This document shows positions 4,329 to 64,000 of a stretch of DNA of 64,000 nt, piece by piece; positions within the stretch are counted from its first letter, which is position 1; every line of letters begins with the position of its first letter. This DNA comes from Halioglobus sp. (GTDB lineage Bacteria; Pseudomonadota; Gammaproteobacteria; Pseudomonadales; Halieaceae), in NCBI GenBank assembly GCA_013214285.1, contig JABSPW010000004.1, positions 1-64,000 of the forward strand, in the 5' to 3' direction. Under the pieces are notes generated by a model, which saw nothing but the letters and a program-made list of their open reading frames with translations, searched no databases and was not told the origin of the DNA. The translations under genes and the position numbers were made by a program.

Positions 4329-5215
4329 ATCGTGAAGTCACTGCGCTGTTCGCTGTGCTGCTTATTCAGTGCGGTATCGTCGCGGCCGTCTACCTTCCAA
4401 CAAGCTATGCCGAGAAAGCACCAGAGCAACTGTCGATTGCATCATTCGATCCTGATGATGTCGCCAGTTTGACTATCGGAGACGGCTACGACAATGAAGC
4501 GGTATTGATAAGGTCCGGCGCGCATTGGATTATACCCGAACTACACGGTCTGCCCGCGGACGCAAGCAAGATTAATGCGTTGCTGCCACGGCTAGTTCGA
4601 CAGAGTGCCGGTTGGCCCGTCGGCAATTCCAAGCCAGCTCAGCAGCGCTTCCAAGTGAGCAAAACCAATTATCAACGACGCTTGAAACTGGGTGCGATTA
4701 GCGCGGACATCGCCACAATCTACCTAGGCACATCCCCAGGCTTTGGTAAGGTACACGCGCGCAATGCTGACGACGACGCCATCTTTCCTGTTGAGCTCAA
4801 TAATTTCGATTTACCTGCGGTAGCGAGCAAGTGGTTGGATCCCCGTTTGCTGCAAGTCAGAGTGCCTATTCGTATCGATACAGATCTTTACCATCTGCGG
4901 CTAGAGGATGGTGCCTGGCTAACGGGTAATGGCCGACTACCGGGTGAAGCGACGCTATTGACTTTGCTGACTGCACTGAAAACGCTAGAGGTCGTTGGCT
5001 TGGCGGACGAGGACCAGGCTCGTCACCTGGCAGCGTTGGAAGCAGACACTATCATGGTAATAGAAAGCCTTGCAGGGACAGTGACTTTTGAATTTAAGAG
5101 CTGGGCAGAGCAATATTTCGTCTTCAGCGACGAATATCCTTTACTTTTTCAGATAGGCCAACAGGACTATGCTCGCCTCACTGATATCGACCTCGGACTG
5201 ATTACGTCTGAATAG
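4325..5215 (+). CDS. DUF4340 domain-containing protein
   Basis: ATGA overlap with preceding gene; single N-terminal TM followed by DUF4340-like repeats; conserved partner of GldG-like genes. Confidence 0.75.
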   Translation: MNREVTALFAVLLIQCGIVAAVYLPTSYAEKAPEQLSIASFDPDDVASLTIGDGYDNEAVLIRSGAHWIIPELHGLPADASKINALLPRLVRQSAGWPVGNSKPAQQRFQVSKTNYQRRLKLGAISADIATIYLGTSPGFGKVHARNADDDAIFPVELNNFDLPAVASKWLDPRLLQVRVPIRIDTDLYHLRLEDGAWLTGNGRLPGEATLLTLLTALKTLEVVGLADEDQARHLAALEADTIMVIESLAGTVTFEFKSWAEQYFVFSDEYPLLFQIGQQDYARLTDIDLGLITSE

Positions 5216-44998: not shown

Positions 44999-45180
44999 CG
45001 GGTCCCTGGTGTATTCGCCAGACTTACAGCTCCTGAGCCGATATTGTGTACCCGGGGGCTTCTCGTATCTGTAGGTGTGCATGTCCGGCAGTGGCCGGAA
45101 AGCCTGATACAGGTCAGAGGCCGCCACCTTGAGCCATCGGGTTCAAGGGCAGTTTTGTCAGCGGTACGCCGGGAACCCCT
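44999..45180 (+). ncRNA. ssrS: 6S RNA
   Basis: Between zapA and ygfA; conserved CCTGAGCCGATATT and CTTGAGCCATCGGGTTCAAGGGCAG; complementary ends GGGTCCCTGGTGTA / TACGCCGGGAACCCC. Confidence 0.93.
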
Positions 45181-58600: not shown

Positions 58601-60616
58601 CTACAAAAGCGCTTCAACGACAGAGGCCACATTCTCCGATGTAAAGCCAAAGTGCCTCATCAGCTCATCGCCAGGGGCAGATTCACCAAAGCTCGTCATC
58701 CCAACCACACGCCCATCCAACCCGACATATTTGTACCAGTAGTCCGCGTGCAATGCTTCTACCGCGACCCGCGCCACAACATCGCTGGGCAGCACCGCCT
58801 CGCGGTAGGTCACGTCCTGCTGCTCAAACACCTCTGCGCACGGCATAGAAACAACACGTAACGCCCTGCCTTTCAACGCGAGTTGCTCTGCTGCTTCCAT
58901 CGCCAACTGCACTTCTGATCCCGTAGCGATTACAATCGCGTCGGGTATGCCATCGCAGTCGCGCAACACATAGGCACCCTTGGCGATATTGGCCACCTGC
59001 TGGTCATCACGCTCCTGATGTGACAAGCCCTGACGAGAGAACACCAGGGACGTCGGTCCATCGCGCCGTTCAATTGCCGCTTTCCAGGCGGCCGCAGATT
59101 CGACCGTGTCGCAGGGGCGCCAGGTCTGCATGTTCGGCGTAGTGCGCAAGGTCGTCAGTTGCTCCACGGCCTGATGGGTCGGCCCGTCTTCGCCCAGACC
59201 TATTGAATCGTGGGTGAACACGAAAATAGACTGCTGCCCCATTAGCGCCGCCATGCGCACCGCATTGCGGGCGTATTCCATAAAAATCAGGAAGGTAGCA
59301 CCGTAGTTGATGAAGCCGCCATGCAGCGCAATACCATTCATAATTGCTGCCATGCCAAACTCGCGCACACCATAGTAAATATAGTTACCGGCGGGATCCT
59401 CAGCCGTAACGGCTTTCGCACCGCGCCACTGAGTGAGGTTGGAACCGGCGAGATCTGCAGAACCGCCGATCAGTTCGGGCAACAACGGCCCATAGGCATT
59501 CAGGCAGTTTTGGGAAGCTTTGCGGGAAGCGATCTGCGCACGTTGCGCCTGGCAAGTGGCAATGTACTCCTGCGCTCGGACAGAAAAATCGGCCGGTAGC
59601 TCGCCCAACAGGCGTCGCTCTAGCTCAGCCGCCAAATCCGGGTGCGCCTGCCGGTAGGCCTGCATCGCTATATTCCACGCAGCTTCGGCCGCGACGCCCG
59701 ACTTGCGGGCGTCCCAACCCTCGGCCACATGGTCAGGGATATCGAAAGGTTCATGGTTCCAACCCAATTCTTTGCGGGCTGCCGAGACCTCCTCATGGCC
59801 GAGCGCAGCGCCGTGCGTGGAAGCCGTACCCTGTTTGTTTGGTGCCCCCTTACCAATTACTGTGCGGCAGCCAATGAGCACCGGCCTATCATGCTGACCG
59901 CGGGCATCCGCAATCGCAGCACTGATCGCATCGGCATCGTGTCCATCAATATTGTCGATGACGCGCCACCCATAGGCACGAAAGCGCCGCGGTGTATCAT
60001 CGGTGAACCAGCCTGGTGCTCCATGGGTGCCAGCAACTTCACCGTCGATCGAGATGCCGTTATCGTCCCAAAAGGCGATCAGTTTGCCCAAGCCCAACGT
60101 ACCAGCCAACGAACAGGCCTCGTGAGAGATACCCTCCATGAGGCAACCATCGCCCATGAAAACATAGGTGAAGTGATCGATCACTTCGTGTCCAGGCCTG
60201 TTATACTGCGCCGCCAGCACTTTTTCCGCCAGCGCCATGCCGACAGCATTGGCGATGCCCTGGCCCAGTGGCCCGGTGGTGGTTTCAACACCCGGTGCGT
60301 AACCATACTCCGGGTGGCCCGGCGTCTTACTATGCAACTGCCGGAAGTTCTCGATTTCCGCCATGGGCAGGTCATATCCGGACAGATGCAGCAAAGCGTA
60401 GAGCAACATCGAGCCGTGACCGTTGGACAGCACAAAGCGGTCACGGTTGGGCCAGTGCGGATTAGTAGGATTGTGCCGCAGATAGTCATTCCATAGCACT
60501 TCGGCGATATCTGCCATGCCCATGGGGGCGCCCGGATGGCCGGAGTTCGCCTTCTGGACAGCATCCATGCTTAAGGCGCGAATGGCATTGGCAAGACTGG
60601 CGCGTGGGGGCGACAT
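58601..60616 (-). CDS. tktA: Transketolase
   Basis: [65 protein letters not shown]. Confidence 0.97.
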
Positions 60617-60750
60617 TACGTTCTCCAGTGCGGCGTGCGGGGTAGGCTGAAATCGGCCGCCATTTTGGCGTAAGCAGTGACGAACGGCAACACGTCGACG
60701 GATATTTGTCCCAAACGCCCGACAGCATGGGTGTGACCGCGATCACAGGG

Positions 60751-60774
60751 CTATATCAAAATATTTTGATATAG
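60751..60774. promoter_or_regulatory. Perfect 24-bp palindrome, candidate SahR-type operator
   Basis: CTATATCAAAATATTTTGATATAG, 28 bp upstream of the ArsR-methyltransferase gene start at 60803. Confidence 0.75.
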
Positions 60775-60802
60775 TTTTGTGCGCCTGCTAGACTGCTCGC
60801 CC

Positions 60803-61825
60803 ATGCCGCAATTGAACGCCGCAACGCCGGTGATACACGCAGTGACAGAGACCTCGGCAGCGCCGCAAGCAGACCTGCAACTGGCAGCCCTTACCAACCT
60901 CTGCAAGGCCAGCGCCGACTCCCTGCGCCTGCTGGTTCTGCGCGTGCTGCGTGCTGACTCCTTTGGCGTGTCCGAGCTCTGTTCCATCTTTGATATTCGC
61001 CAGCCCGCCCTCAGCCATCACCTGAAAGTCCTCGCCAATGCCGGCCTGGTCGCCGCCCGCCGGGAAGCCAATTCAATTTTTTACCGGCGCAGTGAGTTGG
61101 GCCAACACCCCCGACTCGAGGCGCTGCAACAGTCTCTATTTGCAACCGTCGACAGCTTGGAGCTGCCGGCTGACATCGAGCAGCGATTGGGCGCCCTGCA
61201 GCAACAGCGAGTGGAAAATTCCGCCAATTTCTTTCATGACAACGCTCACAAATTTCACGAACAACAAGACCTTATTGCCAGCTACGCGCAATATGCCGAT
61301 GTCGTCCTGCAAGTGTTGCAGGATACGCCAATCAAGCAACACCGCACAGTACTCGAAGTAGGCCCCGGTGACGGTTCCTTCCTGCTAGAGCTGGCGCCGC
61401 TGTTTGAGCGGGTGGTCGCGCTGGATAATGCGCCGGGCATGTTGGCAAAAGCCAAGGAGACGGCAGCTAATGCTGCTCTGACTAACATTGATTTCATTCT
61501 CGACGATACGCAACGCAGCGAACTCAGGGCGCTACAGGCTGACTGCGTAGTTATGAACATGGTCCTGCACCACACGCCTGCACCCGGTGTGGTGTTGCAG
61601 GATGTAGCTGCCTCGCTGGCGCCCGGCGGCGTGGTGCTAGTAACGGATCTGTGCAACCACGACCAGGCATGGGCGCGGGAAAATTGCGGTGATCTCTGGC
61701 TCGGTTTCGATCCCCAGGATCTCGCACAATGGGCCAGGGAAGCAGGGCTCGATGAAATGGCCGGAGTTTATCTGGCTCAACGCAACGGCTTTAAAATACA
61801 GGTACGGCTGTTCGGCCGAGTCTGA
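60803..61825 (+). CDS. ArsR-family regulator fused to SAM-dependent methyltransferase-like domain (SahR-like)
   Basis: Ars[48 protein letters not shown]-terminal methyltransferase [17 protein letters not shown]; adjacent to metK-ahcY. Confidence 0.87.
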
Positions 61826-61850: not shown

Positions 61851-63014
61851 ATGAGCGAGTACAACATTTTCACCTCTGAATCGGTGTCCGAAGGGCACCC
61901 AGACAAAATGGCAGACGCAATATCTGACACTGTCTTGGACTTCATTATCAAAGACGACCCGAATGCCCGCGTAGCCGTCGAAACCATGGTAAAAACCGGC
62001 ATGACGATCGTCGCAGGCGAAGTGACCACTACGACAGCGATGGACGACCTAGAGGACGCCATCCGCGACACCATAAAAGGAATCGGTTACGACAACTCCG
62101 ATGTCGGCTTCGACGGCCACAATTGTGCCTTGCTTAACGCGATCGGCAAGCAGTCTCACGATATTTCTATCGGCGTCACCGAAGGCGAGGGTGCTCATAT
62201 GGAGCAGGGTGCGGGTGACCAGGGATTGATGTTCGGTTACGCGACCAATGAAACCGACGCGCTCATGCCCGCGCCCATCCACTACTCTCATCGCCTTGTT
62301 GAACGGCAGGCCGACCTGCTTAAGAACGGCACCCTTTCCTGGCTCCGTCCCGACGCCAAGAGTCAAATAACCCTGCGCTATGAAGGCAGTAAGCCTGCCG
62401 CGATCGATGCAGTGGTCCTCTCTACTCAGCACGACCCTGATATCAGCCAGTCGGATATTCACGAAGCCATTATGGAAACCGTGATCAAGCCCGTACTACC
62501 GGCCGAGTGGCTGCATGGTGATACGCTGTACCACATCAATCCAACCGGTAACTTTGTGATCGGCGGGCCCGTGGGTGATTGTGGCCTGACTGGACGCAAA
62601 ATCATCGTTGATACTTACGGAGGCATGGCCCGCCACGGCGGCGGCGCATTCTCTGGCAAGGACCCCTCCAAAGTAGACCGCTCCGCGGCCTACGCCGGCC
62701 GCTATGTGGCCAAGAATATCGTTGCGGCTGGTCTGGCCGAACGCTGCGAAATTCAGGTGTCATACGCTATTGGTGTGGCGGAGCCCACTTCAATTTCCAT
62801 TAACACCTTCGGCACGGGCAAGATTGCTGACGATAAAATTCAGGAGCTGGTCCGCGAGCATTTCGACCTTCGCCCTAAAGGACTGATAGAGATGCTGAAT
62901 CTAAAGCGTCCAATCTACAAAAAGACAGCTGCATACGGCCACTTTGGCCGTGATGATGTGGATTTCACCTGGGAAAAAACGGATAAAGCGGACGCCCTGA
63001 AGGCGTCACTTTAA
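61851..63014 (+). CDS. metK: S-adenosylmethionine synthetase
   Basis: [67 protein letters not shown]. Confidence 0.98.
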
Positions 63015-63080: not shown

Positions 63081-63101
63081 AGTTAAAGAGGAAACATGGT
63101 C

Positions 63102-64000
63102 ATGAGCACTGCAGAACAAATCTCCACCAATGAGGACTACAGGGTAGCCAACATCTCACTCGCGCAGTGGGGCCGTCGAGAGCTGGAAATCGCCGAGAGC
63201 GAAATGCCGGCTCTGATGGCTATGCGCGCTAAGTATGCCGCCAGCAAACCCCTCGCCGGCGCGAAAATTCTCGGTTGCATACACATGACCATACAGACCG
63301 GCGTCCTCATTGAAACTCTCATCGAACTGGGTGCCGAGGTCCGCTGGTCTTCCTGTAATATTTTCTCTACTCAGGATCACGCAGCAGCGGCGATTGCTGC
63401 TGCCGGCATCCCCGTATTTGCCTGGAAGGGTGAAACGGAAGAAGAGTATGACTGGTGTATTGAGCAGACCATTCTCAAGGATGGCAAGCCCTGGGCAGCC
63501 AATATGGTGCTAGACGACGGCGGCGATCTGACCGCCATGCTCCACGACAAGTACCCCGAAATGCTCGAAAAAATACACGGTATTACCGAGGAAACCACTA
63601 CGGGGGTGCACCGTCTGCAGGAGATGCTCGAGCACGGTACGCTGCAAGTTCCCGCTATCAACGTCAACGACTCGGTAACCAAGTCCAAGAACGACAACAA
63701 GTATGGGTGTCGCCATAGCCTGAATGACGCCATCAAACGCGGTACAGACCACCTGATGGCGGGTAAAAAAGCGCTGGTCATTGGGTACGGTGACGTCGGC
63801 AAGGGCTCATCACAGTCCCTGCGACAGGAAGGCATGATCGTCAAGATCGCGGAAATAGATCCGATTTGCGCCATGCAGGCCTGCATGGATGGTTTCGAAG
63901 TTGTATCCGCCTATAAGTGTGGTGTAAACGATGGTACCGAGGACTGTATCAACACAGAGCTGCTGCAAACGACCGATCTCGTTGTGACCACCACAGGCAA
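63102..64000 (+). CDS. ahcY: Adenosylhomocysteinase (S-adenosyl-L-homocysteine hydrolase), 3' truncated by window edge
   Basis: [99 protein letters not shown]; open to window end, absent from ORF track. Confidence 0.97.

Follow-up and report, generated by a model that had tools for sequence, protein, structure and literature searches.

A perfect 24-bp palindrome in Halioglobus sp., a gammaproteobacterium of the Halieaceae, is, judged from its sequence and that of its relatives, almost certainly a SahR operator that controls sahR and the neighboring genes for the recycling of S-adenosylmethionine (SAM). Our preferred reading, to which we assign a probability of about 0.92, is that SahR, an ArsR-family repressor encoded just downstream, would use this palindrome as the operator of a sahR-metK-ahcY-metF operon that responds to S-adenosylhomocysteine (SAH). 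The features on which this reading draws are listed below with their positions in the window, by which we mean the whole 64-kb stretch of DNA that was analyzed; the last two genes lie beyond its end.

58601..60616, minus strand: tkt, transketolase (TIGR00232), the divergent neighbor, judged to lie outside the regulon
60662..60690, minus strand: candidate promoter of tkt itself, TTGCCG-17-CAAAAT; the block TTGCCG...TTACGCGAAAAT is kept in relatives
60751..60774, no strand assigned: operator, perfect 24-bp palindrome CTATATCAAAATATTTTGATATAG with core ATC-N10-GAT, conserved in front of sahR at 69 non-redundant loci
60766..60771, plus strand: predicted -35 element TTGATA of the sahR promoter, within the right arm of the operator (promoter scan, 9/12 consensus matches, 17-bp spacer; spacing kept across Halieaceae)
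60786..60794, plus strand: predicted extended -10 element TGC-TAGACT of the sahR promoter (promoter scan; conserved in relatives)
60803..61825, plus strand: sahR, 340 aa, ArsR-family helix-turn-helix (HTH) and SAM-binding methyltransferase-type domain; ATG 8 nt past the -10 element, no Shine-Dalgarno motif
61851..63014, plus strand: metK, methionine adenosyltransferase (TIGR01034)
63096..64000 in the window, to 64493 on the contig, plus strand: ahcY, adenosylhomocysteinase
64507-65349, projected coordinates: metF, after ahcY
65368-66096, projected coordinates: rsmE, after metF

The first-pass annotation of this DNA had described an exact inverted repeat of 24 bp, and the palindrome is indeed identical to its own reverse complement over its full length. 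Base composition leads one to expect 0.004 perfect palindromes of this length in the window, against the one seen, and, with as many as 3 mismatches allowed, the 20-bp core occurs nowhere else in the 3.77-Mb genome. The genes named on either side (tkt, the ArsR-methyltransferase gene, metK and ahcY) also hold as assigned. That annotation had named a lack of conservation upstream of orthologues as one ground for giving up its reading, and the palindrome is conserved there. The named relatives belong to Haliea, Halioglobus and other Halieaceae, followed by Gilvimarinus, Zooshikella and Pseudomonas, and the palindrome, diverged in a few cases, precedes the regulator gene in all 22 named loci with upstream DNA. 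Across the 69 non-redundant loci the copy is perfect in 36 and keeps at least 18 of the 24 consensus letters in every one, with variation concentrated in the central six bases and the outer arms nearly constant. SahR identity falls to about 45% across this set, and the conservation of the palindrome is therefore not a matter of simple recent descent. The palindrome itself served to gather thirty of the loci compared; those gathered by means of the protein give the same picture.

Presence of the site follows presence of the regulator. Of 120 genomes sampled from the family, 104 have SahR and 78 have the 20-mer when up to 2 mismatches are allowed; eight SahR-positive genomes that seemed to have no site at sahR were inspected, and all carry a diverged copy there (18 to 21 of 24 letters). 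Only one of the 16 SahR-negative genomes has a copy of the palindrome, located at metH in an assembly that is 80% complete (G115). One locus (L099, genome G071) has two tandem SahR-type sites before sahR, at 4596 and 4629, 33 bp apart. A class-wide search of 274 genomes, in which few candidates were scored per genome, gave only two further homologues above threshold, one of which, in G281, comes with the palindrome. The other, an ArsR-methyltransferase homologue at L118 (G377), is 29-30% identical, has no palindrome upstream and possibly represents SamR or another branch. The other exact matches to the palindrome across the class have no homologue nearby and were set aside as apparent chance occurrences or sites of other regulators.

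Because tkt diverges from the palindrome, the site might be thought to act in both directions, repressing or activating tkt as well, together with the more distant gap-pgk-fba genes, and so to tie central carbon metabolism to the SAM cycle. Its start codon lies 134 bp from the palindrome, in agreement with the spacing given in the first-pass annotation, and tkt is likewise the neighbor in most Halieaceae loci. However, the distance between the two ranges from 73 to 3464 bp, helical phase is not fixed, and at one locus with more than 4 kb of upstream sequence (L111) the palindrome is kept and tkt is absent. Moreover, a conserved promoter-like block of tkt, about 60 bp away in the window, shifts its position relative to the palindrome; by pattern, TTGCCG-17-GAAAAT is present at 29 of 70 loci, where 53 to 132 bp separate it from the palindrome. 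The earlier proposal that the operator also affects tktA is therefore not borne out, direct control of tkt by the palindrome appears unlikely from these sequences, and we give the bidirectional reading only a slight chance. The block itself (TTGCCG...GCTTACGCGAAAAT, minus strand) is strongly conserved and is likely a promoter of tkt or the site of a regulator.

The gene downstream of the palindrome encodes a protein with the features of SahR. Residues 39-83 match PF01022, NF033788 also scores above its cut-off, and the C-terminal SAM-binding methyltransferase-type domain matches PF13489 and PF08241. Such a C-terminal domain is typical of SahR. The ArsR-type HTH and the linkage to metK, ahcY and metF are thus both found here, together with a 20-bp palindrome bearing ATC-10 nt-GAT that precedes sahR and is kept among its orthologues. 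Across 78 homologues, conservation extends to the SAM-binding motif (E-x-G-x-G-x-G) and to the recognition helix (Q67...S71-H-H-L-K75); Cys60, which lies where metal-sensing ArsR proteins have their metal-binding motif, is not invariant. SahR is about 50% identical to Pseudomonas proteins. On the regulation of PA0547, which we take to be its counterpart in Pseudomonas aeruginosa, nothing was found in literature titles and abstracts. The gaps between ahcY and metF and between metF and rsmE, beyond the window, are as short as 13 and 18 bp, and the transcription unit is therefore probably sahR-metK-ahcY-metF(-rsmE), running past the end of the window. The rRNA methyltransferase gene rsmE (13368-14096 in L029) may thus ride in a SAM-cycle operon.

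The palindrome could instead be the site of another regulator, SamR-like, MetR or MetJ, with the adjacent ArsR-methyltransferase incidental. SamR of Xanthomonadales is a SahR homologue, about 30% identical to SahR at the protein level, and its motif is likewise a 24-bp palindrome with ATC-10 nt-GAT, yet its regulon is described as centered on methionine synthesis and without ahcY (PMC4239095), whereas the operon here has ahcY as well as metF. Furthermore, the site tracks SahR across the family genomes and sits at the promoter of sahR itself, and the MetJ box AGACGTCT differs from the palindrome. We regard assignment to another regulator as very improbable.

The operator and the predicted sahR promoter overlap, with the candidate -35 element contained in the right arm of the palindrome. 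Shuffled sequences would be expected to yield 0.1 promoters of the type TTGATA-17-TAGACT (TAGACT at 60789-60794, TG before the -10 element). At 59 of the 63 loci scored, the palindrome stands 26-28 bp from the ATG; the gap from the -10 element to ATG is 6-8 nt in 62 of 63, and none of GGA, GAG or AGG occurs in that gap. This suggests that transcription would most likely start at or beside the ATG, and hence that the sahR message would be leaderless. In Pseudomonas, Zooshikella and G281, TAGACT lies about 26 bp from the palindrome instead of 14 bp, and a separate TTG-type -35 element adjoins the palindrome. On balance, we lean toward the view that in the Halieaceae operator and promoter form one element of wholly fixed geometry, in which the right arm doubles as the -35 element and the sahR message is leaderless, and that the operator of Pseudomonas, Zooshikella and one other family lies about 12 bp, or one helical turn, farther upstream, beside a separate -35 element, with the short gap from the -10 element to ATG retained.

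That the inverted repeat acts as RNA, as a terminator or a riboswitch-like hairpin in a leader transcript, we consider extremely improbable: the palindrome folds well as a single strand (DNA fold z-score -4.9), but the predicted sahR transcript begins downstream and tkt is transcribed away, so the palindrome should be in neither leader, its exact letters are kept in relatives beyond mere pairing, and neither an Rfam family nor a terminator-like site was found at the palindrome. The covariance model of the SAH riboswitch (RF01057) had no match in the operon and, in a search run without a positive control, none in the 120 family genomes. 6S RNA (SsrS) at 45000-45179, with 102.6 bits, is the window's sole Rfam match above the gathering score.

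Several genera have a second copy of the palindrome, placed between metH and nfuA. Upstream of metH in the window's genome, the best match is 13/24, against a shuffle median of 12, and nothing there rises above shuffled sequence. We accordingly rejected a degenerate metH site, and the regulon in this genome therefore seems to be down to one operator. A loose form of the motif, which specifies 14 bases and allows up to 3 mismatches, has 94 forward matches in this genome; its reversed control has 44. At the five places with 2 mismatches, the 3-kb loci contain no homologue of SahR, MetK, AhcY, MetH, NfuA or Tkt, and we therefore added no other gene to the regulon. A second site in another genome of the set (G027, contig 22) was also set aside, as it falls within a coding region away from SAM-cycle genes. 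The predicted regulon of the window's genome rests on one site together with comparative evidence.

The mechanism we propose for the SahR operator builds on what is observed in Halioglobus sp. and its relatives, namely the palindrome and the constancy with which it accompanies sahR, the set of genes present, the layout of the promoter elements and the conserved SAM-binding motif. A SahR dimer placed on the two arms of the palindrome would cover the -35 element within the right arm, so that RNA polymerase could not start sahR-metK-ahcY-metF. Accumulating SAH would bind the methyltransferase-like domain and release SahR, allowing the operon to be transcribed; AhcY would then remove SAH, and MetK and MetF would help to regenerate SAM. 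The direction of regulation, the effector and the binding by SahR itself are predictions for Halioglobus sp. In Desulfovibrio, SahR binds the operators of SAM-cycle genes in an SAH-dependent manner, as reported in PMC8877191, and the effector is carried over from there. Taken with the conserved SAM-binding motif and recognition helix and the variable Cys60, this suggests that accumulation of SAH would release the very operon that destroys it. Data from an Ensifer aridi sahR mutant support autoregulation (PMC8877191).

Regulation of this kind has been described before. Leyn et al. (2014) reconstructed SahR regulons in Oceanospirillales, various gamma-proteobacteria and Pseudomonadaceae, and reported a 20-bp palindromic motif, the consensus ATC-10 nt-GAT common to SahR and SamR, and sahR, ahcY, metK, metH and metF as core SahR targets (PMC4239095). 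As presented there, the gamma-proteobacterial regulon resembles the one proposed here in its ArsR-family regulator, in ATC-10 nt-GAT and in its sahR, metK, ahcY and metF targets, with metH added in genera related to Halioglobus. Unlike that regulon, Halioglobus sp. has a single operator heading one likely operon and no metH site, and its candidate -35 element lies within an operator arm, an arrangement that we did not see described in the portions of PMC4239095 consulted; the main text of that paper mentions neither "leaderless" nor "tkt". The SahR of Desulfovibrio (Novichkov et al., cited in PMC4239095 and PMC8877191) likewise exerts local ArsR-type control over SAM-cycle genes with a reported response to SAH, though Desulfovibrio is a distant taxon and the likeness is drawn from its description. 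The SahR-type operator put forward in the first-pass annotation is strongly supported by conservation before sahR orthologues, the metH copies in related genera, agreement with the gamma-proteobacterial consensus and overlap with the predicted -35 element. Relative to the published accounts, the Halioglobus sp. system fits SahR on every testable point save the metH site. Earlier work had predicted SahR-type control in this group of bacteria, and the sole fresh detail is the promoter geometry.

In summary, strong comparative evidence adds the Halieaceae to the range of a known SAH-sensing regulon; the work also removes the suggested link to transketolase and points to a regulon seemingly reduced to one operator in this genome. 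It also provides a compact, testable promoter, in which repression would act through covering of the -35 element. Leaderless translation of a regulator gene, conserved across several families, would, if confirmed, be a small but useful observation.
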